DNA of 64,000 nt from NCBI RefSeq assembly GCF_009758015.1, contig NZ_WSEL01000003.1, positions 930,001-994,000 of the forward strand. The letters are read 5' to 3'. Under the pieces are notes generated by a model. The model saw only the letters and a program-made list of their open reading frames with translations, was not told the origin of the DNA and searched no databases. Position numbers and translations under genes: made by a program. Shown one piece after another: positions 2,638-23,715 of the stretch. The stretch comes from Ramlibacter pinisoli. Lineage in GTDB: Bacteria; Pseudomonadota; Gammaproteobacteria; Burkholderiales; Burkholderiaceae_C. The stretch's first letter is position 1. Each line of letters starts with the position of its first letter.

Positions 2638-2694
2638 CAGGGTTTCTCCAATTGGATGGTTGTTGAGAGAGGGGTTTTCGAGCCGGATCCTTGG

Positions 2695-2712
2695 ATGCAG
2701 GTTCTGTGCCAA
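2695..2712 (-). promoter_or_regulatory. Sigma-54 promoter of glnA
   Basis: On the minus strand the segment reads TTGGCACAGAACCTGCAT. It carries the invariant GG (-25/-24) and GC (-13/-12) exactly 12 bases apart, as in the RpoN consensus TGGCAC-N5-TTGC. The predicted start point is near 2685, giving a leader of about 48 bases before the glnA ATG. Confidence 0.85.
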
Positions 2713-2806
2713 AGCTGGTGCATGGCACAACCGGCGGGGCCGGGCGATTGTCGGCGATGTTGGGCTCGGTTCCCTGCAGGGGCCTCAAGGTGCGCGGATG
2801 AGTCGA

Positions 2807-2823
2807 TGCACCGCGACAGTGCA
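2807..2823. promoter_or_regulatory. NtrC-binding site (strong match)
   Basis: TGCACCGCGACAGTGCA fits the 17-bp dyad TGCAC-N7-GTGCA recognised by NtrC. Its centre is about 130 bp upstream of the predicted glnA start point, the normal enhancer distance for a sigma-54 activator. Confidence 0.75.
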
Positions 2824-2832
2824 ATTTCACCG

Positions 2833-2849
2833 CGCACCAAGATCGTGCC
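2833..2849. promoter_or_regulatory. Second, weaker NtrC-type site
   Basis: GCAC-N7-GTGC at 2834-2848 has the dyad spacing of the NtrC site but lacks the outer T/A. It is centred 26 bp from the stronger site and ends directly at the stop codon of the neighbouring CinA-like gene (2850). Paired sites are typical of glnA enhancers. Confidence 0.5.
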
Positions 2850-3662
2850 TCAGCTTTCGCGCACCAATTCGGGGCCCAGTTCGACGCCCAGCTGGCGCAG
2901 CCCGGCCAGCAGGTCGGCATAGGCGGCCGCGGCGGCGGCCGGCGCACCCTTGACGCCCAGGTCGATGTGGCGGCCGTATTGCGGGTGGTCGACGCTGGGC
3001 AGGCTGAACACCTTGATGCCGGCGTGCGCCCGTTCCACCTGTTCCATCAGCGGCGTGAGGTTGGACTCCATGGCGCCGAACACGATGACCGAGCGCTCCA
3101 CGTAGTCGCCGCGCCGGAACAGGTGGGCGTAGCGGTCGTCCAGGACCGACTCGATCATCGGCCAGGCCATGACCGGGAAGCCGGGCACGAAGTGCACGTC
3201 GCCGACGCTGAAGCCGGGGATCTTGTTGTACGGATTGCGGATGATGGACGCGCCGGCCGGGAACACGCCCATGTTGAGGCGGTGCACGTTGTCGGGCCGG
3301 GCGGGCTCGTAGGGCACGCCCTGCTCGCGCGCCAGGTCCTGCATGCGTTCGCGGATCAGCACTTCGGCCTGCGGGTGCAAGGCGAGATCGACGCCCAGCG
3401 CGCGCGCCGCGCACTGGCGCGTGTGGTCGTCGGGCGTGGCGCCGATGCCGCCGCAGGAGAACACCACGTCGCCGCCGGCGAAGGCGCGCTGCAGCGTGGC
3501 CGTGATGCGCTCGGGGGAATCGCCCACGTACTCGGCCCAGGCCAGCTGCAGGCCGCGGGCGGCGAGCAGCTCGATCACCTTGGGCATGTGCTTGTCGGAC
3601 CGCTTGCCGGAGAGGATCTCGTCGCCGACGATGACGAGGCCGAAGTCAGGGCGCTTGGACAT
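2850..3662 (-). CDS. CinA-like competence/damage-inducible protein (molybdopterin-binding fold)
   Basis: A 270-residue protein of the MoCF_biosynth/CinA N-terminal family (COG1058). Family features are the N-terminal GLVIVGDEILSG, the glycine-rich nucleotide or pterin loop SCGGIGATPDDHT (about residues 88-101), and the later FVPGFPVMAWPM and GAMESNLTP segments. The C-terminal nicotinamide-nucleotide deamidase domain of full-length CinA is absent, as in many beta-proteobacterial homologues. The exact reaction is uncertain; pyrophosphatase activity is reported for some members. Its start overlaps the 3' end of the upstream EI24 gene by 17 bp, so the two are probably co-transcribed. Confidence 0.85.
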   Translation of the reverse strand: MSKRPDFGLVIVGDEILSGKRSDKHMPKVIELLAARGLQLAWAEYVGDSPERITATLQRAFAGGDVVFSCGGIGATPDDHTRQCAARALGVDLALHPQAEVLIRERMQDLAREQGVPYEPARPDNVHRLNMGVFPAGASIIRNPYNKIPGFSVGDVHFVPGFPVMAWPMIESVLDDRYAHLFRRGDYVERSVIVFGAMESNLTPLMEQVERAHAGIKVFSLPSVDHPQYGRHIDLGVKGAPAAAAAAYADLLAGLRQLGVELGPELVRES

Positions 3663-7305: not shown

Positions 7306-8079
7306 ATGGATCTGATCCCGATCAATGGCGTGCGCCTGGAGGTCGAACGCATCCCGGGTCCGGCCGGTGCAGGCCGTGCGCCCATCGTGTTCCTGCACGA
7401 AGGCCTGGGCTCGGTGGCGATGTGGCGCGACTGGCCGGCCCGCCTGTGCGCCGCGACCGGGCGGGCCGGCATCGTCTACTCGCGCCGCGGGTACGGCCGC
7501 TCCGACCCGGTGCCGGACGTCCGCGGCGCCGGCCGCCTGCCCCCCGACTACATGCACACCGAGGCGTTCGAGGTGCTGCCCCGGCTGCTCGAGGCGCTGG
7601 GCGTCGCGGCCCCGGTGCTCCTGGGGCACTCGGACGGCGGCAGCATCGCCCTGCTCCACGCCAGCCGCTTCCCGCTGGCCGGCTGCGTCGTGCTGGCACC
7701 GCACGTGATCGTCGAGGACGTCTCGGTGGCGTCGATCGCGCAGGCCCGCGACGCCTTCGGGCAGGGCGACCTGCGCAACCGGCTGGCGCGCTACCACGCC
7801 GATGTCGACGGGGCCTTCTGGCAGTGGAACGACGTCTGGCTGGGCGAGGCCTTCCGGCCGTTCGACATCCGGCCCGACTGCCGCCGCATCGCCGTCCCGG
7901 TGCTGGCGCTGCAGGGCGAGGACGACCCCTACGGCACGCTGCGGCAGGTGCGCGAGATCGGCCCCACGCGGGGCCCCTTCACCTGGCAGGCAATCCCGGC
8001 CTGCGGCCATTCCCCGCACCGCGACCAGCCGGCCGCGGTGGAGGCGGCGGTCACGGCGTTCCTGGCCGATCGGCCCTAG
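7306..8079 (+). CDS. Alpha/beta hydrolase
   Basis: A cytosolic alpha/beta-fold hydrolase of 257 residues. The nucleophile elbow is GHSDGG (Ser109), the acid is likely in LQGEDDPYG, and the base is the His in CGHSPH near the C-terminus. The oxyanion region FLHEGLGS and the RGYGRSDP segment match small-ester or C-C hydrolases such as MhpC/PcaD relatives. The substrate cannot be told. It is divergent from the beta-propeller gene across 64 bp and converges on the pseudouridine synthase gene with a 29-bp 3' overlap. Confidence 0.88.
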   Translation: MDLIPINGVRLEVERIPGPAGAGRAPIVFLHEGLGSVAMWRDWPARLCAATGRAGIVYSRRGYGRSDPVPDVRGAGRLPPDYMHTEAFEVLPRLLEALGVAAPVLLGHSDGGSIALLHASRFPLAGCVVLAPHVIVEDVSVASIAQARDAFGQGDLRNRLARYHADVDGAFWQWNDVWLGEAFRPFDIRPDCRRIAVPVLALQGEDDPYGTLRQVREIGPTRGPFTWQAIPACGHSPHRDQPAAVEAAVTAFLADRP

Positions 8080-9225: not shown

Positions 9226-10350
9226 CTACTTCGTCACGGCGATCGACTTGCGGAACAGCGCAAGGCTGTACACGAAGAAGGCGAGCCCGACGGCCGCCAC
9301 CATCGCGAACTCCTGCCACACGGCCCAGAAACCGCCGCCGCGGTAGATGATGACCTGCGAGAAGCTGACGAAATGGCGCGCCGGCAGGAAGTAGGTCGCC
9401 GTCTGCAGCCAGCCCGGCATGCTCTCCACCGGCGTCGAGCCGCCGGACAGCAGCATCAGCACCACGATCACCAGGATGATGAGCAGCGCGAACTGCGCCA
9501 TCGAGCGCGAGATCGTCCCCAGGTAGATGCCCAGCGCGGTGGCGAAGAACAGGTAGAGCAGCACGCCCAGGAACCAGAGCACCACGGACCCCGCGAACGG
9601 CACCTGCAGCACCATCTGCACCACCAGGAACAGCGAGGCGGCGGTGGCCACCAGGATCACCAGGCTGTTCGCCCACACCTTGGCCATCGCGATCTCGAAC
9701 GAAGTGAGCGGCATCACCAGCAGGTGCTCGAGCGTGCCGTGCTCGCGCTCGCGGATCACCGCCGCCCCGGTCAGGATGACGGTCAGCAGGCTGATCTGGT
9801 TGATGATGGCCACCACGCTCTTGAACCAGGACGACACGGCGTTCGGGTTGAACAGCTTGCGCACGACCAGCTGCACCGGCATGTCGGTGTTGACGTCGGT
9901 ACGCCGGAGGATGGACGAGACGCGGTCGTTGATGATGTTCTTGATGTAGCCGGCGCCGATGCCCGCCTGCTGCATCGCCGTGGCGTCGATGTTGACCTGC
10001 ACCGACGGGTTGCGTCCGGACCGCAGGTCGCGCTCGAACCGCGGCGGGATCACCACCGTGAACATGTACAGGCCCCTGTCCATGTCGTCCTGCATCTCGT
10101 CGGCCCGGATCAGCACCGGGTGGCGGAACCGCGGCGGGTAGAAGGCGTTGATGATCTCCTTGGACAGCTGCGACTGGTCCTCGTCGATGAAGGCGATCGA
10201 GGCGTTGTTCACCTCGCTGGAGGTGCCGGTCGCCTGCACGTGGATCGCCAGCGTGAACGCGTAGATCACGAAGATGACCATCACCTTGTCGCTCAGCAGG
10301 CTGCGCAGCTCCTTGAGGCCCAGCCACAGGATGTTCAGCAAGGTGGTCAT
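9226..10350 (-). CDS. ABC-2 type transporter permease, YhhJ-like
   Basis: A 374-residue inner-membrane permease. There is one transmembrane helix near residues 21-38, a large periplasmic domain (about 40-175), then five helices at about 180-370. It matches the YhhJ/ABC-2 family, whose partners are RbbA-like double ATPases and HlyD adaptors. The segment SGGSTPVESMPGW and the INDRVSS region are typical of the family. It starts 2 bp after the rbbA stop and ends the four-gene export operon. The exported substrate is unknown; drug or polypeptide export is usual for relatives. Confidence 0.9.
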   Translation of the reverse strand: MTTLLNILWLGLKELRSLLSDKVMVIFVIYAFTLAIHVQATGTSSEVNNASIAFIDEDQSQLSKEIINAFYPPRFRHPVLIRADEMQDDMDRGLYMFTVVIPPRFERDLRSGRNPSVQVNIDATAMQQAGIGAGYIKNIINDRVSSILRRTDVNTDMPVQLVVRKLFNPNAVSSWFKSVVAIINQISLLTVILTGAAVIREREHGTLEHLLVMPLTSFEIAMAKVWANSLVILVATAASLFLVVQMVLQVPFAGSVVLWFLGVLLYLFFATALGIYLGTISRSMAQFALLIILVIVVLMLLSGGSTPVESMPGWLQTATYFLPARHFVSFSQVIIYRGGGFWAVWQEFAMVAAVGLAFFVYSLALFRKSIAVTK

Positions 10351-10352
10351 GG

Positions 10353-13169
10353 CTACTTCTCCTGCTTCCTCAGGCCGATGAAGCTCACCAGCAGGAACAC
10401 CGGGATGCAGGCGGCCAGGAACAGGATGTCGCCCACCATCAGGCTGGCCCCCAGCCCCTTGGTGTAGGCCCCCAGGCTGGAGTGCATGTAATAGGTGGCT
10501 GGCCAGAGCTCACCGACGCGCCGCGCATTGCCTTCGAGGGTGGACACCGGCTGCAGCAGGCCCGAGAACTGGATCGTCGGCACGATGGTGAGGATGGCCG
10601 TCACGAACACCGCCGCCACCTGGCTGCTGGTGAACGTCGACGTCATCATCCCGATGCCGGTGGTCGCCGTCACGTACAGCAGCGTGCACAACAGCAGCAT
10701 CAGGAAGTTGCCCTTGACCGGTACGCCGAACACGAACACCGTCATCGCCGCCAGGATCAGGAAGTTGATCATCCCGATCACGATGTACGGGATCTGCTTG
10801 CCGATCAGGTACTCGAGCTTGCCGGTGGGGGTGACGTAGAAGTTGATCATCGAGCCGAGTTCCTTCTCGCGCACGATGCTCACGGTCATCAGGATCGCGG
10901 GGATCAGCAGCAGCAGCAGCGCCGGCACGCTGGGCACGATCGAATAGACGCTCTCGAACGTCGGGTTGTACATGAAGCGGTTCTCGATCTTGGCGGTGAA
11001 CTTCTGCGGCCGCGACGGTGGCAGGTTGGCGCCCGGATCGGTCTGCAGCGTGGCATTGACCCCCTGCACGTACTGGCCGATGGTCTCGCCGCGGAAGGTC
11101 ATCGCCCCGTCGACGTGGGCCAGCACCTCCGGCATGGCACCGCGCCGCACCTCGCGGCCGAAGTTCGGCGGCACCTCCAGGATCATGGAGGCATCGTCCG
11201 CCTGCAGGCGCCGCAGCGCTTCGGCATCGGAGTCGACCGCCGCGGTCGGCTTGAAGTAGCGGCGCGAGGCCTCGAACTGCTCGATGTACGCCCGGCTCTC
11301 GGGCGAGCGGTCCTGGTCGAAGGTCGCGTAGCGGATGTTCTCGACGTCGGTGGTGATGCCGAAGCCGCACACCAGCATCAGCACCGCCGAGCCGAAGAAC
11401 GCGAACCACAGCCGCACCGGGTCGCGCATGATCTGCACCGTCTCATTGCGGGTGTAGGCCAGCATCCGGGTCAGGGGCAGCGTCCACCGGGAGCCGCCGC
11501 CGCCGTGGCCGGCCGGCGCCAGTGCCACCGGCGCCGCCGATACCGGCTCCGCCGTCGCGCCCGCTCCCGCACCACCGCTCTTGCCCTTGGCCGCCGCAGC
11601 CGCCGCGTCCGCCGCGATCCCGTCCTCCATGTAGCCGATGAAGGCCTCCTCCAGGCTGGGCGCACCCTTGTCCTGGATCAGTTTGTCCGGCGCGTCGCAG
11701 GCCAGCACCCGGCCTGCATGCATGAGCGAGATGCGGTCGCAGCGCATGCCCTCGTTCATGAAGTGGGTCGTCACGAAGATGGTCACGCCCTGGTTGCGCG
11801 AGAGGTCGATCAGCAGTTCCCAGAAGCTGTCGCGCGCCACCGGGTCGACGCCGGAGGTGGGCTCGTCCAGGATCAGGATCTGCGGCTCGTGCAGCACGGC
11901 GACCGCCAGCGACAGCCGCTGGCGCAGCCCCATGGGCAACGATTCGGCCAGCGCGTCGAGGTGGTCCTCGAGGCCGAAGCGTTCCACCAGGTTGGCGATG
12001 CGCGCCTTGGCCTTGTCGGGCGGCAGGTGGTACAGCCGGGCATGCAGCACCAGGTTCTGGCGGATGGTCATCTCGCCGTACAGCGAGAAGGCCTGGGTCA
12101 TGTAGCCGAGCTTGCGGCGCACGTCCATGCTGCCCGCCTCGACCGAGCTGCCGAACAGCGTGGCGCTGCCCTCGGTGGGCGGCAACAGGCCCGTGAGCAT
12201 CTTCATGGTGGTGGACTTGCCGCAGCCGTTGGAGCCGAGGAAGCCGAAGATCTCGCCGCGTTCGATGGACAGGGTGACGTTGTTCACGGCGACGAAGTCG
12301 CCGAACCGCCGCGTGAGGCCCTTGGCGTCGATCGCGATCTCGGTGCCTTCCTGGCGCGGCGGGATCGTCAGCTCGGTGTGCCCCCTGCGCTTTTCCTCGG
12401 GGAGCAGCGCGATGAAGCATTTCTCCAGGTCGCTCGTTCCGGTGCGGAACATGAGTTCCGCCGGCGTGCCGGTCGCCAGCACCTTGCCGTCGTCCATCGC
12501 GACGATCCAGTCCCACTGCTGCGCCTCGTCCATGTAGGCGGTCGCGATGACCACGCTCATCATCGGGCGGTCCTTGCGGATGTCGTCGATCAGGCTCCAG
12601 AACTGGCGCCGCGACAGCGGATCGACGCCGGTGGTCGGTTCGTCCAGGATCAGCAGGTCGGGGTCGTGCACCAGGGCACCGCACAGGCCGACCTTCTGCT
12701 TCATGCCACCCGACAACTTGCCGGCGGGACGCTCGTTGAATGGCCCGAGACCGGTCGCATGGAGCAGTTGCTTGATGCGCCCCGGACGCTCCGCGCGGGT
12801 CAGCCCGAACAGCTGCGCCATGAAGTCGACGTTGTCCGCGACACTGAGCTCGAAGTACAGGTTCTTGCCCAGGCCCTGCGGCATGTAGGCAATGCGCGGA
12901 CAGGCGGCACGGCGGTGGCGGACGTCCCCGATGTCGCCGTCCAGGACCGTCATGGTCCCCTGCTGCAGCTTCTTGGAGCCGGCCATCAGCGCCAGCAGCG
13001 TCGACTTGCCGACGCCGTCGGGGCCGATGATGCCCACCATCAGCCCGGGCGGGATGTCGATGGAGATGGCATCCAGCCCCTTGACCTTGCCGTAGTGGTG
13101 CGTCACCTCATGGACGCTGACCACCGGTTTGCCGGCCGGACCGGCGGGCGCGTGCTGCGTGGATGACAT
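10353..13169 (-). CDS. rbbA: RbbA-type ABC transporter: two ATPase domains fused to a permease
   Basis: A 938-residue protein with two ABC ATPase domains (about 17-250, Walker A GPDGVGKST; about 275-510, Walker A GSNGCGKST, each with an LSGG-like or LPMGLRQRLSL signature and LILDEPT Walker B), an Ala/Gly-rich linker (about 515-560) and an ABC-2 permease half (about 565-938). E. coli RbbA (YhiH) is near 911 residues with the same order. RbbA was first described as a ribosome-associated ATPase, but the operon with an HlyD adaptor, a second permease and an outer-membrane factor argues for export. Start supported by GGAGGAG upstream. Confidence 0.93.
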   Translation of the reverse strand: MSSTQHAPAGPAGKPVVSVHEVTHHYGKVKGLDAISIDIPPGLMVGIIGPDGVGKSTLLALMAGSKKLQQGTMTVLDGDIGDVRHRRAACPRIAYMPQGLGKNLYFELSVADNVDFMAQLFGLTRAERPGRIKQLLHATGLGPFNERPAGKLSGGMKQKVGLCGALVHDPDLLILDEPTTGVDPLSRRQFWSLIDDIRKDRPMMSVVIATAYMDEAQQWDWIVAMDDGKVLATGTPAELMFRTGTSDLEKCFIALLPEEKRRGHTELTIPPRQEGTEIAIDAKGLTRRFGDFVAVNNVTLSIERGEIFGFLGSNGCGKSTTMKMLTGLLPPTEGSATLFGSSVEAGSMDVRRKLGYMTQAFSLYGEMTIRQNLVLHARLYHLPPDKAKARIANLVERFGLEDHLDALAESLPMGLRQRLSLAVAVLHEPQILILDEPTSGVDPVARDSFWELLIDLSRNQGVTIFVTTHFMNEGMRCDRISLMHAGRVLACDAPDKLIQDKGAPSLEEAFIGYMEDGIAADAAAAAAKGKSGGAGAGATAEPVSAAPVALAPAGHGGGGSRWTLPLTRMLAYTRNETVQIMRDPVRLWFAFFGSAVLMLVCGFGITTDVENIRYATFDQDRSPESRAYIEQFEASRRYFKPTAAVDSDAEALRRLQADDASMILEVPPNFGREVRRGAMPEVLAHVDGAMTFRGETIGQYVQGVNATLQTDPGANLPPSRPQKFTAKIENRFMYNPTFESVYSIVPSVPALLLLLIPAILMTVSIVREKELGSMINFYVTPTGKLEYLIGKQIPYIVIGMINFLILAAMTVFVFGVPVKGNFLMLLLCTLLYVTATTGIGMMTSTFTSSQVAAVFVTAILTIVPTIQFSGLLQPVSTLEGNARRVGELWPATYYMHSSLGAYTKGLGASLMVGDILFLAACIPVFLLVSFIGLRKQEK

Positions 13170-13236
13170 GCGAACTCCTCCTCGAGCGCGCCAGGCCGGC
13201 CTCGGCCCGCTCGCGCCACATTGCGGGCGGGATCAC

Positions 13237-14280
13237 TTACTTCGTGGGCGAGGCTCCGAGGACCGACGTGGGGTTCGATTCGAGCGGCCCCTTGGCCGTC
13301 AGCACGTTGGTGTCCAGGTTGGTGGGCCACGCGACCGTGTCGGTGTACTTGACGTACCCGACGCCGCGCACTCCGGTCTTGATGCTCTGGATGTACTGGC
13401 CGACCAGTTCCTTGGGCACCTGCAGCTTGACGCGGAACATCAGCTTGTCGCGTTCGCTCTTGGTCTCCACTTCCTTCGGCGTGAACTGCGCCTCGGGCGA
13501 GACGAAGCTGACCACGCCCACGGCCGAGCGGTCCGGCTGGGTGTCGAGGACGATGCGGCCCTCGCTGCCGATCTTCACCGCGGCCGCCTGCGCCGCCGGC
13601 AGGAAGATCTCCATGTACACGTCCTCCAGGTTCACCAGCGTCAGCGCCTTGCCGCCGGCGCCGAGCACCTCACCCGGCTCCGCCAGGCGATAGAGCACGC
13701 GACCGAGCACCGGCGAGACCAGCGTGGCGTCCTTGATGCGGGTCTCGATCGTCTGCACGTTGGCCAGCGCGACCTCGACCTGCTGCTTGGCGGTCTCGAG
13801 CTTGGCCATTTCCTCTCCCAGTGCCGCCCTGGTGGTGACGACCGTCGTCCGGCGCACGTCGTACTCACGCTGCGAGGAGGCGTTTTCGGCCAGCATCCGG
13901 CGCACCCGCTCGACCTCGATGTTGGCCAGCTCGATCTCGCCCTTGCGACGCGCGATGGAGGAGTTGACGACGGCCATCTGCTCACGCGCGGCGGCCACGC
14001 GGGCCTTGGACTCGGCCATCTGCGACTCCAGCGTCACCGTGTCCAGCAGCACCACGACCTGTCCCGGCTTGACCAGGTCGCCTTCCTGCACCTTGATCTC
14101 CTTGACCCGCAGCGGCTCCTTGGCCGAGACGTCGGCGAGCCGGGCCTCGATGCGGCCGTTGCCGGATGCGATGCCGGGCGGCAGCTTCCCGGCCTGCTGG
14201 TCCTGCCAGTACTTCCAGCCGAAGAACCCGGCGGCCACGAGGACGACCAGGGCAATGATCCAGTTGCGGTACTTAGTCAT
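13237..14280 (-). CDS. HlyD-family membrane fusion protein, YhiI-like
   Basis: The periplasmic adaptor of the export system, 347 residues. One N-terminal membrane anchor (about 7-25), then a split lipoyl domain (ASGNGRIEA and the later EPGEVLGAGGKAL region) separated by a long coiled-coil hairpin (about 85-175, heptads such as AESKARVAAAREQMAVV), then a beta-barrel domain. The ATG at 14280 gives the anchor directly and has GGAG upstream; an earlier in-frame ATG is rejected. It joins the inner-membrane RbbA/permease to the TolC-like protein encoded just upstream. Confidence 0.92.
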   Translation of the reverse strand: MTKYRNWIIALVVLVAAGFFGWKYWQDQQAGKLPPGIASGNGRIEARLADVSAKEPLRVKEIKVQEGDLVKPGQVVVLLDTVTLESQMAESKARVAAAREQMAVVNSSIARRKGEIELANIEVERVRRMLAENASSQREYDVRRTTVVTTRAALGEEMAKLETAKQQVEVALANVQTIETRIKDATLVSPVLGRVLYRLAEPGEVLGAGGKALTLVNLEDVYMEIFLPAAQAAAVKIGSEGRIVLDTQPDRSAVGVVSFVSPEAQFTPKEVETKSERDKLMFRVKLQVPKELVGQYIQSIKTGVRGVGYVKYTDTVAWPTNLDTNVLTAKGPLESNPTSVLGASPTK

Positions 14281-14291
14281 GGCGTTGCTCC

Positions 14292-15854
14292 TCAACGACT
14301 CTGCGTGGTCACGGGTGCGGGGGCGGGGGACGTGGACAGCAAGTCACCCCAGTTGGTGCGCTTTTCCATTTCGATCCGGGTCTTCTCCGGGATCGACGGC
14401 TGGTTCTGGTGCGGCTCCCAGCCGCCCCCCAGGGCCTTGTAGAGGGAGATCAGGTTGGTCGCGATGTCCGACTGGGCCTGCGCCAGCGTGGTCTCCTCCT
14501 GCAGCAGCGCCCGCATCGAGTCGAGCACGCGCTGGAAGTCGACCGCGCCCTCGCGGTACTGGATGAAGGCCAGCTCGGACGAGCGCAGGGCCGAGGCCGC
14601 CGAGTTCTGCGCGAAGGCCGCGATCTGGTGCGACCGCACGTAGCCCGTCACGCCGTCCTCGGCCTCCTGCTGGGCGCGCAGCACCACGGCCTCGTAGTTG
14701 ACCAGGCTCTGCTGCAGCCGGGCGTCCTCGACCCGGATGCTGTTCTTCGTCCGGTCGTAGTTCAGGATCGGCAGGTAGATGCGCGGGCCGATCGAGTAGA
14801 AGCCGCTGTTGATGTCCAGCCCGCCCCCCGTGGACAGGTAGCCGATCGTCCCGGAGATGGAGATGCGGGGATAGAGGTCGGCGGTGGCAAGGCCCACGCG
14901 CGCCGACTGCGCGAGCGCCGCGTACTCGGCGCCGCGGATGTCGGGACGGCGGCGCAGCAGTTCGGCCGGCATGCTGATGCCCACCGAGGCCGGTGCGACA
15001 GGGATGCGGGCCGACGTGCCGAGCAGTGCCTGCACCTGTCCCACCGGCTGCCCGATCAGCGTGCTGAGCGCGTTCTGCGTCAGGCTCAGGCTCAGCTGGT
15101 AGCGCGGGATCGACACCCGGGTGCTTTCCAGCAGCGTGCGGGCCTGCTGCACGTCCAGGTTGGACGTGGCGCCATTGCGGTAGCGCACGTCGGCGATGCG
15201 GAAGCCCTCCTCCTGCAGCCTGACGTTCCGCTGCGCCAGCGCGATCAGGGCCTCGTAGGTGCGGATCAGGGCGTACGAGCGGGCGACCTCCGCGCTGAGG
15301 GTGACCAGCGCCGTGTCGTAGTCGGCCATGCTGGTGACCAGCCGCGCCTCCTCGGAGCGCGCCAGGTTCTTGTAGCGGCCCCAGAAGTCGATCTCCCAGG
15401 CCATGTCGAAGCCGGCCTGGAACTCGGTGAAGTGGCGGTCGAAGTTGGCGGTGTTCGGTGCCTCCCGGCTCAGCCCGACCGCGGTCGCCTGGCCGAAGAG
15501 GGCCTGCACCTGCGGGTATTGCTGTCCGACGGCCAGGGCCAGCTGGGCTCTCGACTCCGCGATGCGCAAGCCTGCGGCGCGCAGCGAGAGGTTCTGCTGC
15601 CAGGCCATTTCGATCAGCTGGTTGAGGATGGGGTCGTTGAAGCTGCGCCACCACGCACCGTCGACGGCCTTGGCCTTGTCGAGCAGGGCTTCGTCCGCCG
15701 CCGACCACTGGGCACTGGCCTGCGTTTCCGGCTTGGCGAATTCCGGACCGACCGTGGTGCACGCGGCCAGCGCCGTCGCCAGCACGAGCGGAGCGAACGC
15801 ACGATGCCGGGAGCCGCGCGGGCGCGCAGGCGGTCGGTGGTCTTGGGGACGCAT
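14292..15854 (-). CDS. TolC/OprM-like outer-membrane factor (NodT family lipoprotein)
   Basis: The outer-membrane channel of the export system, 520 residues. The lipobox ALAAC gives Cys32 as the lipidated residue. Two repeated outer-membrane-efflux domains follow, with NodT signatures such as WWRSFNDP near residue 75, LRAAGLRIAESRAQL, and the second-repeat RRPDIRGAEYAALAQSA. The start has GAGGAG seven bases upstream. It is the first gene of the export set and begins only 47 bp after fabI on the same strand, so readthrough from the acetate operon is possible. Confidence 0.92.
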   Translation of the reverse strand: MRPQDHRPPARPRGSRHRAFAPLVLATALAACTTVGPEFAKPETQASAQWSAADEALLDKAKAVDGAWWRSFNDPILNQLIEMAWQQNLSLRAAGLRIAESRAQLALAVGQQYPQVQALFGQATAVGLSREAPNTANFDRHFTEFQAGFDMAWEIDFWGRYKNLARSEEARLVTSMADYDTALVTLSAEVARSYALIRTYEALIALAQRNVRLQEEGFRIADVRYRNGATSNLDVQQARTLLESTRVSIPRYQLSLSLTQNALSTLIGQPVGQVQALLGTSARIPVAPASVGISMPAELLRRRPDIRGAEYAALAQSARVGLATADLYPRISISGTIGYLSTGGGLDINSGFYSIGPRIYLPILNYDRTKNSIRVEDARLQQSLVNYEAVVLRAQQEAEDGVTGYVRSHQIAAFAQNSAASALRSSELAFIQYREGAVDFQRVLDSMRALLQEETTLAQAQSDIATNLISLYKALGGGWEPHQNQPSIPEKTRIEMEKRTNWGDLLSTSPAPAPVTTQSR

Positions 15855-15901: not shown

Positions 15902-16684
15902 TCAGCCCATGATGTGCATGCCGCCGTCGACGTAGACGGTGCCGCCCGTGATCCGCCGTGCGTACGGCGTCGCCAGATAGGCGCAGGCGAAGCCCACGTC
16001 CATGATGTCCACCAGCTCGCCCACCGGCGCCCGCTCCGAGGCTTCGTTCAGGAGCAGCTCGAAATCCTTCAGCCCCGAGGCGGCGCGCGTCTTCAGCGGC
16101 CCGGGCGAGATGGCGTGCACGCGGATGGCCTGCGGCCCCAGCTCGTAGGCCAGGTAGCGGCAGCTGGCCTCGAGGGCGGCCTTCACCGGTCCCATCACGT
16201 TGTAGTTGGCCACCACCTTCTGCGCCCCGTGGTAGCTCATGGCCATCATGGTCCCGCCCTCCTTCATCAGCGGCGCGGCCAGCCGGGCCATGCGGATGAA
16301 CGAGTGGCAGGAGATGTCGATGGCCTTGGCGAAGCCGTCGGCACTGCACGCGTGCAGCGGCCCCTGCAGGTCCTCCTTGGGCGCCCAGGCGATGGAATGC
16401 ACCAGGATGTCCAGGCGGCCCCAGTCCTTCGCGACGCGCTCGAACACCGCCTCCAACTCGCCGGCGTGGGACACGTCGCAGGGCATGAGGATCGGCGCCT
16501 GCAGTTCGCGCGCCAGCGGCTCCACGTAGCTGCGCGACTTCTCGTTGGCGTAGGTGATCGCCAGCTCCGCCCCGAGTTGGCGGAAGGCCGAGGCGCAGCC
16601 ATAGGCGATCGAATGCTCGTTGGCGATGCCGACGACGAGGGCCTTCTTGCCTGCCAGCGCCGGGTGGTGGGTTGCTGCGGTCAT
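15902..16684 (-). CDS. fabI: Enoyl-[ACP] reductase (NADH), FabI type
   Basis: Reduces the trans-2 double bond of enoyl-ACP, the last step of the fatty-acid elongation cycle. At 260 residues it matches FabI. Features are the N-terminal VVGIANEHSIAYG (FabI version of the Rossmann motif), SIAWAPKEDLQGP, and the catalytic Tyr-x6-Lys in YNVMGPVK preceded by MSYHGAQ. It is the last gene of the DUF3141-pta-ackA operon, 13 bp after the kinase gene. This is probably not the housekeeping copy, because it is tied to acetate genes; a function on 4-carbon acyl groups linked to PHA-like metabolism is an inference. Confidence 0.93.
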   Translation of the reverse strand: MTAATHHPALAGKKALVVGIANEHSIAYGCASAFRQLGAELAITYANEKSRSYVEPLARELQAPILMPCDVSHAGELEAVFERVAKDWGRLDILVHSIAWAPKEDLQGPLHACSADGFAKAIDISCHSFIRMARLAAPLMKEGGTMMAMSYHGAQKVVANYNVMGPVKAALEASCRYLAYELGPQAIRVHAISPGPLKTRAASGLKDFELLLNEASERAPVGELVDIMDVGFACAYLATPYARRITGGTVYVDGGMHIMG

Positions 16685-16697
16685 GGTGCGTGGGTTC

Positions 16698-18401
16698 TCA
16701 TTGCAGGGACATGGTCACGTGGACCACGCCGCCTTCATGGCGGGTCTCGGACGGCAGGCCGCTGGCACGGAACACCGCCAGCATCGGCACGTTCTCGTGC
16801 AGCACCTCGGCCACCAGCTTGCGCACGCCGTGCTGGCGCGCGATGGCGACCAGGTGCTGCAGCAGCAACCCGCCCATGCCGCGTCCCTGCCACTGGTCGG
16901 AGACGCCGAAGGCCACCTCGGCCTCGCCGGGCTCGGTGACGATGTAGCGGCCGGCGCCGACGATCGCGTCGTCGGCCACCGCCACCAGCGCCACGTGGTG
17001 CACGAAGTCGATGTCCAGGAAGCGCTGGACCTCCTCCTCGCTGAAGGACCGCCGGGGCGCGAAGAAGCGGCGCCGGATCGACTCCGGGCTCATGTCGACC
17101 AGCACGTTGCGCATGCCCTGGCGGTCGGTCGGACGCTGGGCCCGGATCGTGATGGTGCTGCCGTCGCGCAGGGTCGCGCGCGCCGCGTGCCGGCTGGCGT
17201 CGGCCCCCGCTTCGGCGCCGGCCGCCCCGAGCAGCGTGCGGGTATGCCGGGCGATCATTAGCTCCTCGTTGGTCGGCACCACGTAGGCCGCCACCCGACT
17301 GCTCTCCTTGCTGATGCGCGGGCCGCCTCGGGTGTTGGCGGTGGCGTCCAGTGCCACGCCCAGCCAGGCGGCGTCCTCGCAGACGCGGCGCCGGATCAGC
17401 GGCGCGTGCTCGCCGATGCCGGCCGTGAAGACCAGCGCGTCCACGCCGCCCAGCGCGGCGACGAGGGAGCCCAGTTCGCGCCGGATGCGGTACAGGTAGA
17501 GGTCGACCGCGGTGCGGGCGCGGACGTCGTCGCTGTCGAGCAGGGCCCGCATGTCACTAGAGATGCCCGACACGCCCAGCAGGCCGGACTGCTTGTAGAC
17601 CAGGTTCTCGATGGCGCGCACGTCCATGCCGCGCTGGTCCATCAGGTACAGGATCACGCCCGGGTCGAGCGAGCCGCAGCGCGTTCCCATGGGCAGGCCG
17701 TCGACGGCGGTGAAGCCCATGGTGCTGGCCACGCTGCGGCCGTCGGCCATTGCGCACATGCTGGAGCCGTTGCCCAGGTGCAGCACGACGGCGCGCCCGC
17801 GGGACACGCGCGCGTCCACCTGCGGCAGCACCGAGGCGATGTACTCGTAGGACAGGCCGTGGAAGCCGTAGCGCCGCACGCCCTGGGCGTGCATCTCGGC
17901 GGGCAGCGCGAACATCTGCGCGAGCTCGGGGTTGCCGCGGTGGAACCCGGTGTCGAAACAGGCCACCTGGGGCATGGCCGGCAGGCGCTGCATCAGCAGC
18001 TCGATGGCCGCGAGGTTGTGCGGCTGGTGCAGCGGTGCCAGCGGCACGAAGGCCCGCAGCGCCTCCAGGGTGCGCTCGTCCATGCGCACCGGCCGGGCGA
18101 AATGCATGCCGCCGTGGACGACCCGGTGGCCGATGGCGGCCAGGTTGTCGGCGCCCAGGTGCTCGCGCACCCGGGGAATGAGGTGGTCCAGCGCACCCTC
18201 GTGCCCCAGTTGCACGCCATCGCCCCAGGACTTGGCGTCCACCTGCCGGCCGGCCGCATCCAGGGCGACGAAGCGCGGGCTGGTGTACAGCCCCTCGACC
18301 TGGCCGCGCAGAACGAGGTCCAGCTCCTTGCCGCGCAGCAGGAACAGCGAGTACTTGATGCTGGACGAGCCGGCGTTCAGGACCGCAATGGCGTCGGGCA
18401 T
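16698..18401 (-). CDS. ackA: Acetate kinase fused to a Pat-like GNAT acetyltransferase
   Basis: One uninterrupted 567-residue frame. Residues 1-395 are a complete acetate kinase (acetyl-phosphate + ADP to acetate + ATP): VLNAGSSSIK, GHRVVHGG, CFDTGFH, VLHLGNGSS, MGTRCGSLDPG, GIGEHAPLIRRR and TNEELMIARHT are all present. After an Ala-rich linker (391-407), residues about 408-567 form a GNAT domain with MSPESIRRRFF, the acetyl-CoA loop QGRGMGG (505-511) and LHENVPMLAVFRASG, closest in pattern to the C-terminal domain of Pat/PatZ protein lysine acetyltransferases. Normal acetate kinases are about 400 residues. The gene lies 18 bp after pta. Kinase identity is sure; acetylation of proteins is an inference. 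Confidence 0.92.
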   Translation of the reverse strand: MPDAIAVLNAGSSSIKYSLFLLRGKELDLVLRGQVEGLYTSPRFVALDAAGRQVDAKSWGDGVQLGHEGALDHLIPRVREHLGADNLAAIGHRVVHGGMHFARPVRMDERTLEALRAFVPLAPLHQPHNLAAIELLMQRLPAMPQVACFDTGFHRGNPELAQMFALPAEMHAQGVRRYGFHGLSYEYIASVLPQVDARVSRGRAVVLHLGNGSSMCAMADGRSVASTMGFTAVDGLPMGTRCGSLDPGVILYLMDQRGMDVRAIENLVYKQSGLLGVSGISSDMRALLDSDDVRARTAVDLYLYRIRRELGSLVAALGGVDALVFTAGIGEHAPLIRRRVCEDAAWLGVALDATANTRGGPRISKESSRVAAYVVPTNEELMIARHTRTLLGAAGAEAGADASRHAARATLRDGSTITIRAQRPTDRQGMRNVLVDMSPESIRRRFFAPRRSFSEEEVQRFLDIDFVHHVALVAVADDAIVGAGRYIVTEPGEAEVAFGVSDQWQGRGMGGLLLQHLVAIARQHGVRKLVAEVLHENVPMLAVFRASGLPSETRHEGGVVHVTMSLQ

Positions 18402-18419: not shown

Positions 18420-19358
18420 CTACTGGACGGCCTTGGACAGCGCTTCGCGGCGTGCGTGCGCCACCAGCGATGCCACCGCGCACGAGGCCAGCCGGGTCGT
18501 CACCGAGTCGGCGCGGCTGGTCAGGATGATGGGCACCTTCGCGCCCAGCACGATGCCGGCGGCATCGGCCTGTGCCAGGAAGCTCAGGCTCTTGGCGAGC
18601 ATGTTGCCCGCCTCCAGGTCCGGCACGATCAGCACGTTGGCGCGGCCGGCGACCGGCGAGTCGATCTTCTTGATCGCCGCCGCCTGCAGGTTGATCGCGT
18701 TGTCCAGCGCCAGCGGCCCGTCGAGCACGGCTCCGGTGATCTGGCCGCGGTCGGCCATCTTGCACAGGGCGGCCGCCTCGACGGTCGAGGGGATCTTGGG
18801 GTTGACCGTCTCCATCGCCGACAGGATGGCGACCCGCACCTCCTGCTGCCCCAGCGCATGGGCGAGGTCGATGGCGTTCTGGACGATGTCGATCTTCTCT
18901 TCCAGCGTGGGCGCGATGTTCACCGCCGCGTCGGAGATGATCAGCGGGTGCTCGTAGCTGGGGACGTTCATCACGAACGAGTGGCTGATGCGGCGCGCGG
19001 TGCGCAGGCCGCCCTCGCGCGAGACCACCGCGGCCATCAGCTCGTCGGTGTGCAGGCTGCCCTTCATCAGGCACTCGACGCGGCCCTCGCGCACCAGCCG
19101 CACCGCCTCGACGGCCGCGGCATGGCTGTGCGGTGCATCGACGATCTCGATCCCGGCGATGTCCAGCTCCGCCTTGCGCGCCGCCGCCGCAATGCGGGCC
19201 GACGGGCCCACCAGCACGGGCTTGATCAGTCCCATGCTGGCCGCGTTGACCGCCCCGGTCAGCGACGACTCGTCGCACGGATGCACCACCGCGGTCGGGA
19301 TCGGCGGCAGCGTCCGGGCGCGCGCCAGCAGGCGCTCGTAGGCTTGGTGTTGGCTCAT
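18420..19358 (-). CDS. pta: Phosphate acetyl/butyryltransferase
   Basis: Interconverts acyl-CoA and acyl-phosphate (acetyl-CoA + Pi to acetyl-phosphate + CoA), supplying acetate kinase. The 312-residue PTA/PTB-family protein shows the family segments LMKGSLHTDELMAAV, ISDAAVNIAPTLEEK and the C-terminal ADAAGIVLGAKVPIILTSRAD. The length fits the short PTB-like class rather than the 700-residue Pta. Whether it prefers acetyl, propionyl or butyryl groups cannot be told. The start overlaps the stop of the DUF3141 gene by ATGA, so it is translationally coupled to it. Confidence 0.93.
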   Translation of the reverse strand: MSQHQAYERLLARARTLPPIPTAVVHPCDESSLTGAVNAASMGLIKPVLVGPSARIAAAARKAELDIAGIEIVDAPHSHAAAVEAVRLVREGRVECLMKGSLHTDELMAAVVSREGGLRTARRISHSFVMNVPSYEHPLIISDAAVNIAPTLEEKIDIVQNAIDLAHALGQQEVRVAILSAMETVNPKIPSTVEAAALCKMADRGQITGAVLDGPLALDNAINLQAAAIKKIDSPVAGRANVLIVPDLEAGNMLAKSLSFLAQADAAGIVLGAKVPIILTSRADSVTTRLASCAVASLVAHARREALSKAVQ

Positions 19359-21697
19359 CGGGAAGCTCCGTGCTGCGCCCGGCTCGGGCGGCGCCGGGTC
19401 CTGGCCGCGCCGTTGCCGGCACCTACGCTGTCACGGATGCGCTGCAGGAGTTGCAACTGCTCCGGCTGGGGCTTGATCTTCTGCACCCGCTGGTCGGCCA
19501 GCAGGGTTTCCAGCAGCCGCACCAGCCGGTCCCGGTCGGCCTGCTCGTGCAGCAGGTGCGGCAGGGTCGCCAGCGCCTGCTCGGGCTCGAAGCGCACGAT
19601 CAGCTCCTGCTCGCCGCGCACGCGCCGCGCCTGGTCCAGGGTCATCGGCGGCAGCAGGTCCTTGTAGTCGCTGATCAGCTCCTTCTTGAGGTCCAGCCGC
19701 GACAGCGGCAAGGGCTCGCCCTTGCGCGCGAGCAGGATGGCCGCGCGGGCGGCGGCCTCGGCGTAGCCGCCGTGGTCGATGGACGCCAGCGCCTCCTTGA
19801 CGATGGGAAGCTGCCGCGGATCCTGGGGCCCCGGCTCGGCATCGCTCCGTACCCCGTCGTCCATGTACAGGCCGAACATGTTGCCGTACAGCTCGAAGAA
19901 GCGGGCCTCGCTGCTCGCATCGCGCACCGCCCGGTAGAAGTCCAGCGCGGCGCTCGTCAGCTCGGCCATCGCCTTCTCGCTGCGGCGCATCGGGTGGTCG
20001 GCCGGCAGCGCCGCGCGCTGCTTCTTCACCATCTCGGCCGCCGGCTTGAGCCACCACAGCGCGGGGTTGAGGTCGGAGAAGGCCCAGCGCTGGACGCGCA
20101 GCGGATGGAACGCACGTTGCACCTCGCCGCCGATCTCGCTCGACCAGGCCTGCACCAGCGGGCGCGCGAACCGCTCGTAGGCGCGCTGGTTGAAGTCGGA
20201 CACGGCCGCCACCGCCTCGAAGGGCTTCTCGTCGGCCCGCTTCATCCGGTTCAGATGCTTGACGACATCCTCCAGCCGTCGCTCCTCGAAGCTCACCTCG
20301 TAGGCCGGCTGCCCGTCCGCGCCCTTGCGATCGGTGATGTGCATGGCGTACAGGCCGGGCGGCATCACCTCGATCGACTCCATCACGTTGACGATCTGGG
20401 TGTGCTCCTTCTTCGCCACCCGCCCGGACACGAAGATGCCCAGATGGCCCACGTCCTTGTGCACCAGGCCGACGATGACCTGGCCGCGGGCCTTGATCTC
20501 CTCGGTGCTGCCGTACACGTCGGCCACCCAGTTGAAGGCCTGCTCGGGCGGCGTGATGTTGTCGCCGATGGAGGCGAACAGGATGATCGGCACCTTCATT
20601 GCCCGCAGGTCGAACACTCCGCCCCGCCCGGTCTCGACTTCGCCCGACCAGAGCTTGTTGCCGACGAACAGGTTGCGGGTGATCCACTCGATCTCCTCGC
20701 GGTTCATCAGGTAGTAGCCGCCCCACCAGCGCTCGAAGTCCAGGAAGCGCGGCGGCTCGGTGTCCACGTTCTCGAACACGTGGTAGTACTTGTCCCAGTA
20801 GGTATTGGCCGGGTTGAGGCCCTCGAAGTTCTGCACCAGCCAGGCACCGTCGAAGGTACCGCCGGCCAGGTCGGAGGTGAGCGACGCGAGCCAGGTGCCG
20901 CCCAGCAGGCCCCCCGAGTAGCGCATCGGGTTGTCGCCCTCGCCCTGCTCCCAGGCGCCGCTCCAGTACGACATCGGGGCGCCGTTGATGACGACCGGGC
21001 CGGTGTCGTCCGGGTTGGACGAGGCCAGCATCATCGCGGCCCAGCCGCCCTGGCAGTTGCCGATGATGGCGGGCTTTTCCGAGTCGGGGTGCAGCTCGCG
21101 CACCCGGTGGACGAACAGCGCCTCCGTGTTGCACACGTCGAGCAGGGTCTGCTCCGGCTCCGGCTTGGGATAGAAGATGACGAAATAGACCGGGTGGCCC
21201 GCGCGCAGGGCGGCGCCCACCTCCGAGTCGTCCTTCATGCCGCCGATGCCGGGCCCGTGGCCCGCGCGCGGGTCGATGATCACGTACGGTCGCTTGCGCG
21301 CGTCGACCTTCACGCCCTCCGGCGGGACGATGCGCACCAGGGCGTAGTTGACCGGCTTGCCCAGCGTCCGCCCGTCCATCACCATCTCGTAGTCGAAGTG
21401 CAGCACCGGCGGTAGGCCGGCGCGGGACCGCTCGACGTAGATGTTGCCGCGCTCGCGCAAGGTGTCCCAGAACAGCACCGTGCGCTGGGCAACGTCGGTG
21501 GCGTAGGCGGTGGCGCTGCTCCACCACTCCCACGGTGTCTGCGCCGACGGCGCGACCGGCGCCCCATCCGTTGCGTAAGCCTTGCGGGCGCGCTCGACGA
21601 ACTGCTGCTGTGCGATCCTGAGCCGTTTCTGCATCAGCTCCGCCACTTTGGCGGACAGCTCGATGCGGCGGGTGAGACGGCGGGCTGGATCATTCAT
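19355..21697 (-). CDS. DUF3141 protein with a PhaC-like catalytic triad
   Basis: First gene of the acetate operon, 780 residues. The N-terminal two thirds resemble PHA synthase/alpha-beta hydrolases: the lipase-like box is GNCQGGW with Cys215 as nucleophile, and a candidate acid (Asp379 in ASIGDNITPPEQ) and base (His418 in HKDVGHLG) follow in the right order. Family length and the long C-terminal helical part (about 480-780) match DUF3141. Acyl transfer to a hydroxyacid or a thioester hydrolase role is plausible but unproven. The ATG at 21697 has GGGAAC upstream; the in-frame extension beyond it would run through the operator region. Confidence 0.88.
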   Translation of the reverse strand: MNDPARRLTRRIELSAKVAELMQKRLRIAQQQFVERARKAYATDGAPVAPSAQTPWEWWSSATAYATDVAQRTVLFWDTLRERGNIYVERSRAGLPPVLHFDYEMVMDGRTLGKPVNYALVRIVPPEGVKVDARKRPYVIIDPRAGHGPGIGGMKDDSEVGAALRAGHPVYFVIFYPKPEPEQTLLDVCNTEALFVHRVRELHPDSEKPAIIGNCQGGWAAMMLASSNPDDTGPVVINGAPMSYWSGAWEQGEGDNPMRYSGGLLGGTWLASLTSDLAGGTFDGAWLVQNFEGLNPANTYWDKYYHVFENVDTEPPRFLDFERWWGGYYLMNREEIEWITRNLFVGNKLWSGEVETGRGGVFDLRAMKVPIILFASIGDNITPPEQAFNWVADVYGSTEEIKARGQVIVGLVHKDVGHLGIFVSGRVAKKEHTQIVNVMESIEVMPPGLYAMHITDRKGADGQPAYEVSFEERRLEDVVKHLNRMKRADEKPFEAVAAVSDFNQRAYERFARPLVQAWSSEIGGEVQRAFHPLRVQRWAFSDLNPALWWLKPAAEMVKKQRAALPADHPMRRSEKAMAELTSAALDFYRAVRDASSEARFFELYGNMFGLYMDDGVRSDAEPGPQDPRQLPIVKEALASIDHGGYAEAAARAAILLARKGEPLPLSRLDLKKELISDYKDLLPPMTLDQARRVRGEQELIVRFEPEQALATLPHLLHEQADRDRLVRLLETLLADQRVQKIKPQPEQLQLLQRIRDSVGAGNGAARTRRRPSRAQHGASR

Positions 21698-22428: not shown

Positions 22429-23715
22429 ATGGCGTTCGACAACAGCGACTTCATCCCCACCGCCCAGGCCCTGGCCCCGTCGCTGGCGGTGGGACTGCTG
22501 CTGGGGCTCGAGCGTGGCTGGCGCGAGCGCGAGCTGGCCGAAGGCGGCCGCGTGGCGGGTCTGCGGACCTTCGGCCTGATCGGCCTGCTGGGGGGACTGC
22601 TGGGGCTCGATCTCGACCCGCTGCCGTTCGCCGCCGGCCTGCTGGCCATTGCCCTGCTGTTCGTGGTGTCCTATGGCAGGGCCTCGCGGGCCGGCGGGAC
22701 CCTGAGCATCACCAGTGCCGTCGCCGCCTTCGTCACGTATGCACTGGGCGCACTGGCGGCCAGCGGCTCGCCGATGGTGGCCATCGCCGCGGCGGTGGTG
22801 GTGGCGCTGCTGCTCGACCTCAAGGCCGTCCTGCACCGCTGGCTGCGCCTGATCGAACCGGCCGAACTGAACGCCCTGCTGCAGCTGGGCGTGCTGTCGG
22901 CAGCGGTGCTGCCGGCGCTGCCCGACGTCGGCATGGGCCCCTACGCCGCCATCAACCCGTACAAGACCTGGCTGGCCGTGATCCTGATCGCGAGCCTCTC
23001 GCTGGCCGGCCACGCGGCCACGCGCATGGTCGGCGCCCGGCAGGGGTTGCTGTGGGTCGGCCTGCTCGGCGGGTTGGCCTCCTCCACCGCCGCCACGCTG
23101 TCGCTCTCGCGCACCGTGCACAGCCGTCCCGAACTCGCCGCGGCCGGTGCGGCGGCCATCCTGGCCGCCTGCGGCGTGATGTTCGTGCGCATGGCGATCG
23201 TGGTCACCGTGCTGCAGCCGCAGGCCGCGCTGCGGCTGGGACTGCTGCTGGTGCTGCTCGCGGCCGTCTGCCTGCTGCTGGCCTGGCTCTGGTGGCGCCG
23301 GGCCGCCCACGACCAGGCCGCTCCCGACGGCAGCGAGAAGGAAGAGGACTCGCGGGTGTTCGACCTCGGCGCAGCCATGATGTTCGGCGCCTCTCTGGCC
23401 GCCATCGCGGTCATCGCCCGTGCGGCCCGCGATGCATTCGGCATCGCCGGACTCTATGGCGTGGCCTTCGTGTCGGGCCTGGTCGACGTCGACGCGCCGA
23501 TGATCTCCAGCCTGCAGATGGCCGCGCAGGGCCAGCTGGCGCCGACCGGCCTGTCCATCACGGTGCTGCTGGCCGCGGTGGCGAACCTGGTCAGCAAGGC
23601 CACCATGTCGTGGGCCGTCGGGGGTGCGCGGCTGGGTGCGGCCGTGGCGCGCGGCTACCTATTCGTGGGCGCGGCGGGCGCGGCCATGCTGGCCGGAATG
23701 GCCGCGCTGGGCTGA
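22429..23715 (+). CDS. MgtC/DUF4010-family integral membrane protein
   Basis: A 428-residue, very hydrophobic protein with about eleven to twelve predicted helices. The N-terminal part (about 1-140) resembles MgtC/SapB, including LAVGLLLGLERGWRER and the RVAGLRTFGLIGLLGG motif; the remainder is the DUF4010 domain with INPYKTWLAVILIA and GLASSTAATLSLSR. A charged cytoplasmic loop (SEKEEDSRV, about 300-310) splits it. Family function is unknown, although MgtC relatives are linked to magnesium stress. It ends shortly before the convergent tmRNA gene. Confidence 0.85.
   Translation: MAFDNSDFIPTAQALAPSLAVGLLLGLERGWRERELAEGGRVAGLRTFGLIGLLGGLLGLDLDPLPFAAGLLAIALLFVVSYGRASRAGGTLSITSAVAAFVTYALGALAASGSPMVAIAAAVVVALLLDLKAVLHRWLRLIEPAELNALLQLGVLSAAVLPALPDVGMGPYAAINPYKTWLAVILIASLSLAGHAATRMVGARQGLLWVGLLGGLASSTAATLSLSRTVHSRPELAAAGAAAILAACGVMFVRMAIVVTVLQPQAALRLGLLLVLLAAVCLLLAWLWWRRAAHDQAAPDGSEKEEDSRVFDLGAAMMFGASLAAIAVIARAARDAFGIAGLYGVAFVSGLVDVDAPMISSLQMAAQGQLAPTGLSITVLLAAVANLVSKATMSWAVGGARLGAAVARGYLFVGAAGAAMLAGMAALG

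Follow-up and report, generated by a model that had tools for sequence, protein, structure and literature searches.

Gene content of the acetate locus

The window analyzed here, a 64,000-nucleotide stretch of the Ramlibacter pinisoli genome, carries on its reverse strand a tight operon in which the acetate kinase gene (ackA) runs in frame into the coding sequence of a GNAT-family acetyltransferase. The gene order is DUF3141-Ptb-AckA-GNAT-FabI. The DUF3141 gene overlaps the start of ptb by 4 bp, ptb lies 18 bp upstream of the fused gene and fabI 13 bp downstream of it. The features are as follows:

19355..21697 (-), DUF3141 protein, weakly similar to PHA synthases (start at 21697 chosen from relatives that align from there)
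18420..19358 (-), Ptb/Pta-type phosphotransacylase (NF008852, PRK11890, above cut-off)
16698..18401 (-), whole AckA-GNAT gene, 567 amino acids plus stop, ATG start, no interruption
17217..18401 (-), AckA half (residues 1-395), acetate/propionate family kinase by Pfam, TIGR00016 and alignments
17199..17219 (-), junction (codons 395-401), compared codon by codon with the same-genus genome G007
16701..17201 (-), Pat-type GNAT half (residues 401-567), with Glu 495 presumed catalytic and the acetyl-CoA loop at 505-510
15902..16684 (-), FabI-type enoyl-ACP reductase (NF005717, above cut-off)

The first-pass annotation had proposed one uninterrupted frame of 567 residues that encodes a complete acetate kinase, a linker and a GNAT domain resembling that of the Pat acetyltransferases. 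The frame is confirmed, and the assignment of both domains agrees with Pfam, TIGR00016, sequence matches in the PDB and Foldseek. Pfam places Acetate_kinase at residues 5-385 (363 bits) and Acetyltransf_1 at residues 451-548 (45 bits), both above cut-off; by Pfam and NCBIfam together, AckA is complete and spans residues 4-393, and the GNAT domain covers the last third of the protein. The motifs MSPESIRRRFF and QGRGMGG begin at residues 437 and 505, respectively. The two-domain anatomy stands, with one correction on the linker: it is very short, and residues 401-567 correspond to a free-standing GNAT including its N-terminus. The two halves are alike in composition (GC and GC3 of 72 and 95% in one, 72 and 96% in the other). 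The full-length structure model is good for AckA and assigns a pLDDT below 50 to a large share of the GNAT part. Judged by its sequence, the gene looks like a real fusion of an intact ackA to an intact Pat-type GNAT gene, and it is the sole PF00871 match in its genome.

Both halves retain catalytic signatures

The N-terminal half is predicted to be an acetate kinase by Pfam (PF00871, 363 bits against a cut-off of 22), by TIGR00016 (ackA, 351 bits against 293) and by its catalytic residues. The best equivalog model, NF005462, scores 443 bits, under its cut-off of 486. Alignments with acetate kinases of known structure extend along the entire half, and none of the catalytic residues is lost in the alignment to 1tuu. 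Residues N9, S12, R93, H125, D150, H181, H208, R241 and E379 are invariant in a 36-row AckA alignment; we take their catalytic roles from the residue list of Methanosarcina thermophila AckA. This part of the structure model is confident, and it resembles acetate kinases with a TM-score, normalized to the target, of about 0.9.

The C-terminal half resembles Pat in every sequence and fold comparison made except the NCBIfam cut-off, the model for which also spans a part outside the GNAT domain. Its nearest sequences in the PDB are the GNAT domain of Streptomyces lividans Pat (2.9e-24), Rv0998 and Escherichia coli PatZ. A structure model of moderate quality (pLDDT 66, pTM 0.65, from a 3-row alignment) retrieves Pat enzymes first in Foldseek (4nxy/4u5y of S. 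lividans Pat, Rv0998 and E. coli PatZ), headed by 4u5y, in which S. lividans Pat is complexed with the C-terminal domain of acetyl-CoA synthetase. The NCBIfam Pat model (NF058543) gives 92 bits against a cut-off of 460; the match is confined to positions 132-287 of the 317 in the profile, leaving the region that precedes the GNAT domain without a counterpart. Glu 495 has its aligned counterpart in S. lividans Pat and Rv0998, is invariant across the 11 aligned clade members and is presumably the general-base glutamate in strand 4. The acetyl-CoA loop, the loss of which in a structural model had been named as a point against the fusion, is kept: QGRGMG at 505-510 fits the (Q/R)xxGx(G/A) motif given in the accessible part of PMC11254643.

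The GNAT half of the window gene is not a degenerate domain. All 33 positions invariant in the ten other clade members, its closest relatives found, are conserved (33/33), and its branch (0.33) is no longer than those of its free sisters (0.41 and 0.46). The suspicion of a degenerate appendage applies instead to one relative (G021), where a broken remnant lies at the same place. A second, stand-alone Pat-like GNAT is encoded elsewhere in the same genome (G000:C3:1345650-1346174, locus L204); it is only remotely related to the fused GNAT, as a 35% match that sits on a very long tree branch.

The junction and the origin of the fusion within the genus

The genome G007 keeps the two genes apart: its ackA ends with TAG, and its GNAT gene begins with GTG 12 bases later in the same frame. 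At the corresponding positions and with equal spacing, the window has GGC (codon 395) in place of the ackA stop and GCC (codon 400) in place of the GNAT start. No indel is needed to explain this spacing, and the change involves two separate codons. The codon-by-codon comparison speaks against a frameshift or join at the linker, a concern raised with the original annotation, and the similar GC and GC3 of the halves likewise make an assembly join unlikely. G046 is a second free-standing case, in which ackA ends with TGA and the GNAT gene begins with ATG in another frame. Separate translation of the GNAT half from within the window gene was also considered. There is no in-frame ATG, GTG or TTG between residues 383 and 429, and the remaining possible internal start is the ATG at 382, within the conserved tail of AckA.

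A separate GNAT gene directly follows ackA in two of the 60 same-genus genomes (G007 and G046), and both free GNATs look intact. In G021 (L158 = G021:C26, ~7818-7982), some 38 N-terminal GNAT codons are left between ackA and fabI and the remainder is gone. The genus relatives with the nearest AckA, G023 and G011, have no GNAT, and their fabI follows ackA at 64 and 30 bp, respectively. AckA matches at 1e-22 were counted, from the rows listed, in 18 of the 60 genomes, with the fusion in the window's genome only. A tree of Ptb plus AckA (20 rows; L124 and L012 were left out because no Ptb match was found) recovers a supported clade (96/95) that contains the fused form, adjacent forms, the remnant and forms that lack a GNAT; it has eight rows, two of them identical, and its inner order is unresolved. 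The simplest history would be an ancestral ackA-gnat pair, a single fusion and more than one loss.

No other AckA-GNAT fusion appeared among the matches listed in 99 relatives and 60 genus genomes, in 399 genomes of the family, in 310 genomes of the order (E ≤ 1e-120) or in 397 genomes of an alphaproteobacterial order (E ≤ 1e-100). These genome sets overlap, and scoring in the three large sets extended to three to four candidates per genome; the searches of the relatives, the family and the alphaproteobacterial order cover the best matches, and fusions involving a distant AckA would escape these scans. In a redundant set of 166 AckA loci, the window's gene alone carries a GNAT. Two loci flagged as extended (L083 and L156) hold no GNAT fusion; what looked like an extension was a match continuing beyond the stop codon of G007. 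No AckA-GNAT protein was found in literature titles and abstract openings, a scope that leaves subscription journals mostly outside and does not prove absence.

A different AckA fusion was seen at locus L115 (G031:C9), where a frame at 1507-3129 encodes Acetate_kinase (332 bits, profile from position 123) followed by a PTAC phosphate propanoyltransferase domain (211 bits). This frame combines the kinase and the transacylase of one pathway in a single chain.

Related GNATs neighbor the acetate cluster in alphaproteobacteria

The DUF3141-Ptb-AckA-FabI cluster occurs in other proteobacteria with the same four genes in the same order; the window differs in that a GNAT is appended to the C-terminus of its AckA. 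Used by itself as the query, the GNAT found eight genomes (E ≤ 1e-24) among 297 of one alphaproteobacterial order, and seven of the eight have genes of the cluster within about 10 kb (G859, G1031, G1076, G1003, G895, G950 and G1149). The exception, G861, has no AckA match at 1e-100. In G859 the stretch examined reached DUF3141 only, and ackA is located at 27465 of the same contig. The GNAT also lies near the acetate cluster on a Bradyrhizobium tropiciagri contig (L059) and on a Microvirga contig (L021), the latter with Ptb and AckA only. The alphaproteobacterial GNAT stands divergent, convergent, upstream or downstream of the cluster. Because its orientation and position vary, inheritance of a single operon does not by itself account for the link to the cluster.

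A tree of 30 GNATs joins those of the window, G007 and G046 with eight alphaproteobacterial rows (97/94). Ten of these 11 GNATs neighbor all or part of the cluster, and coverage around the remaining one (G858b) was limited to 9 kb of contig. The GNATs of G950 and G1149 are also at the cluster, yet fall outside the window clade and within a wider clade of 21 rows that also holds unlinked GNATs. Two further cluster-borne Pat-like GNATs belong to another lineage: one in G034 (L160, 10867-11274, after fabI) and one in G290 (L159, 7409-7888, directly after ackA). Their more distant placement in the tree (91/96, below the tool's star mark) suggests a separate recruitment to the cluster.

The association is weak in the reverse direction: this GNAT was present in two of 80 AckA-centered loci, many of them from Microvirga, within the DNA examined, and a third (L069) had a weak match at 6e-5. 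Among 369 sampled genomes of the window's class, seven others had a GNAT match at 1e-22. No cluster was seen in the flanks of five (3 kb only for G792, and cut by the contig end for G610), and coverage of the other two (G856 and G832) was 1.5 kb on each side. From their gene positions, GNATs of this kind appear to be a recurrent neighbor of the DUF3141-Ptb-AckA-FabI cluster, and the predicted free relatives of the window GNAT near the same cluster in alphaproteobacteria are the new element here. Beyond the single fusion, gene neighborhood lends support to a functional tie between this GNAT and the acetate genes. In Bradyrhizobium diazoefficiens, pta and two ackA genes are induced in a phaR mutant (PMC10888616, accessible part); kinship of these genes to the cluster studied here is not implied.

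Comparison with known lysine acetyltransferases

The accessible part of PMC6456759 sorts lysine acetyltransferases (KATs) into types I to V, and the fused regulatory domains named there are ACT, cAMP-binding and NADP-binding domains, acetate kinase not being among them. The window protein shares with Pat/PatZ/YfiQ (types I and II) a GNAT of the same family, with the presumed catalytic Glu and the acetyl-CoA loop aligned. In those enzymes, however, the partner is an NDP-forming acyl-CoA synthetase-like domain, whereas here it is an acetate kinase with a complete catalytic signature. Acetate_kinase and GNAT were the only domains found in the window protein, which places it outside the PatZ class.

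Its layout is that of type III KATs (cAMP-, ACT- or NADP-binding domain plus GNAT, as in Rv0998, AAPatA and MxKat) according to the class definition in the same part of PMC6456759, with an N-terminal domain of about 400 residues and a C-terminal Pat-type GNAT. Unlike the partner domains of type III KATs, AckA is itself an enzyme, and a sensing role for it is putative. Acetate kinases bind their own substrates. Two type IV enzymes, compared with the window GNAT by description only, offer functional parallels. Bacillus subtilis AcuA is a single-GNAT KAT that ties acetyl-phosphate and acetyl-CoA to the control of acetyl-CoA synthetase (Acs) (PMC11255334, accessible part), but it is encoded in the acu operon, beside acsA, and is not fused to AckA. 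Rhodopseudomonas palustris KatA works as a stand-alone KAT, with Acs and further CoA ligases as its substrates (accessible parts of PMC6640162 and PMC6456759).

A possible link between the Ptb-AckA route and acetylation of CoA ligases

Few free-standing GNATs have been assigned to the part of central metabolism that they control. A natural fusion together with a recurrent neighborhood names the partner pathway (Ptb-AckA) and the GNAT clade. What can be read from the DNA are two apparently complete halves with catalytic signatures, a stop and a start replaced by sense codons, and the linkage of GNAT and cluster. To explain them, we tentatively favor, at a little under an even chance, a bifunctional acetate kinase and lysine acetyltransferase, formed by fusion of ackA to the next gene of the operon, that ties the Ptb-AckA route to the acetylation of CoA ligases such as Acs. 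Lysine acetylation, its target and any control by AckA are the steps that we infer.

The AckA half and Ptb would interconvert acyl-phosphate and acyl-acid (acetate, perhaps propionate or longer), and the GNAT half would transfer the acetyl group of acetyl-CoA to the catalytic lysine of Acs and other AMP-forming CoA ligases. This modification would switch off the high-affinity acetate route while acetyl units run through Ptb-AckA, and the sirtuin of the genome would reverse it. AckA may serve as an anchor that keeps GNAT output proportional to AckA, probably with two GNATs per AckA dimer, and it possibly also acts as a sensor of acetate, ATP or acetyl-phosphate.

The genome encodes both an Acs (958 bits against a cut-off of 725) and a sirtuin (SIR2 match, 150 bits). 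The Acs carries NLPKTRSGKIMRR, which contains the PKTRSGK motif that we take to be the acetylated one. Acs is a substrate of KATs that carry fused regulatory domains (PMC6456759, accessible part), and AMP-forming CoA ligases are silenced by KATs whose GNAT is of the Pat type (accessible parts of PMC6456759 and PMC6640162). Furthermore, acetyl-phosphate plus CoA drives the AcuA-dependent acetylation of B. subtilis Acs in vitro, which connects the AckA/Pta route with Acs (PMC11255334, accessible part). It is from the silencing of CoA ligases by KATs, the presence of Acs and a sirtuin in the genome and the link between acetyl-phosphate and AcuA that we propose Acs-type ligases as candidate substrates of the fused GNAT. 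We consider Acs, a CoA ligase encoded outside the operon, a more probable target than the enzymes of the operon itself.

We also considered whether the GNAT replaces PatZ. No full-length PatZ was found in the R. pinisoli genome, where the best match (31%) stops before the GNAT domain. PatZ is full in 39 of the 60 genus genomes and partial in three more; none was seen in G007 or G034, and G046 has one in addition to its adjacent GNAT. Three of the four genomes with an ack-linked GNAT (G000, G007 and G034) thus have no PatZ, versus 15 of the 56 others, a difference that is not significant (one-sided Fisher test, p = 0.077) in a count read by eye from the listing, with the three partials taken as present and at most 15 candidates scored per genome. 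The trend is suggestive only.

Several observations count against the bifunctional reading: the fusion is a singleton among the matches listed, the GNAT is patchy and the relatives with the nearest AckA have none. The other Pat-like GNAT (C3:1345650) could do the same job. The co-occurrence of GNAT and PatZ in G046, the lack of significance of the PatZ trend and the low score with the NCBIfam Pat model also weigh against this reading. An alternative is a chance fusion with no new function, in which the GNAT would behave no differently from its free counterparts and the loss of the stop would merely couple its amount to that of AckA. The two genes adjoin in the operons of G007 and G046, where the free GNATs look intact, the GNAT is absent or broken in near relatives, and neither the matches listed nor the 166 AckA loci yielded a second fusion. 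On the other side, stop and start are now sense codons and the halves are intact, which indicates that the fusion is at least tolerated. We regard a chance fusion as possible though rather unlikely.

A more specific proposal is that of a new kind of KAT coupled to a sensor, in which acetate kinase would itself sense the metabolite and supply the donor. Either the GNAT would be gated by the state of AckA (with acetate, ATP or acetyl-phosphate bound), or it would receive acetyl units on the spot from Ptb and AckA; Acs would thereby be shut down at the very time that acetate passes through the Ptb-AckA route. On this view, the fusion would make permanent a partnership that occurs in trans in several alpha- and betaproteobacteria. 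We consider this proposal unlikely.

The first-pass annotation had suggested that the operon's own enzymes are perhaps acetylated; in such a reading the GNAT would modify lysines of AckA, Ptb, FabI or DUF3141 in a feedback loop within the operon. The recurrent neighborhood involves exactly these genes, and tethering to AckA raises the local dose; yet the nearest solved relatives of the GNAT are associated with CoA ligases and not kinases, and the GNAT is on the other strand in several alphaproteobacterial genomes, which means that shared expression is not fixed. Such self-regulation is decidedly improbable. More doubtful still is a GNAT that acts on a small molecule or on protein N-termini instead of lysines: GNATs are versatile and the ArsN1, RimI and AAC(6') models match weakly, but at 23-30 bits they are far below the Pat match (92 bits), and fold and sequence both rank Pat first. 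An assembly or sequencing artefact joining two genes is barely credible even for a fusion found in a single genome, as it needs changes at two separate codons with the G007 spacing in a genome of 11 contigs that is 99.98% complete.

If the bifunctional reading is correct, both acetate-activating routes and both acetyl donors (acetyl-CoA and acetyl-phosphate) would be joined in one polypeptide, which would provide a simple tool protein for asking whether an acetate kinase gates a KAT. The recurrent link in trans raises the interest of the fusion, and the single fused example, known from its sequence alone, limits it.

Other features of the window

A scan with an FNR-type consensus gave one match in the whole window, with one mismatch, at 7312; the chance mean is 1.18, and the candidate box near the operon was rejected. 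Downstream of the operon, at 9226-15830 on the reverse strand, is an exporter set that includes a two-ATPase ABC transporter fused to its own permease, a second permease, an HlyD-type fusion protein and an OEP outer-membrane channel. A gene for an MgtC plus DUF4010 protein of unknown role (22429-23715, forward strand) is divergent from the acetate operon.
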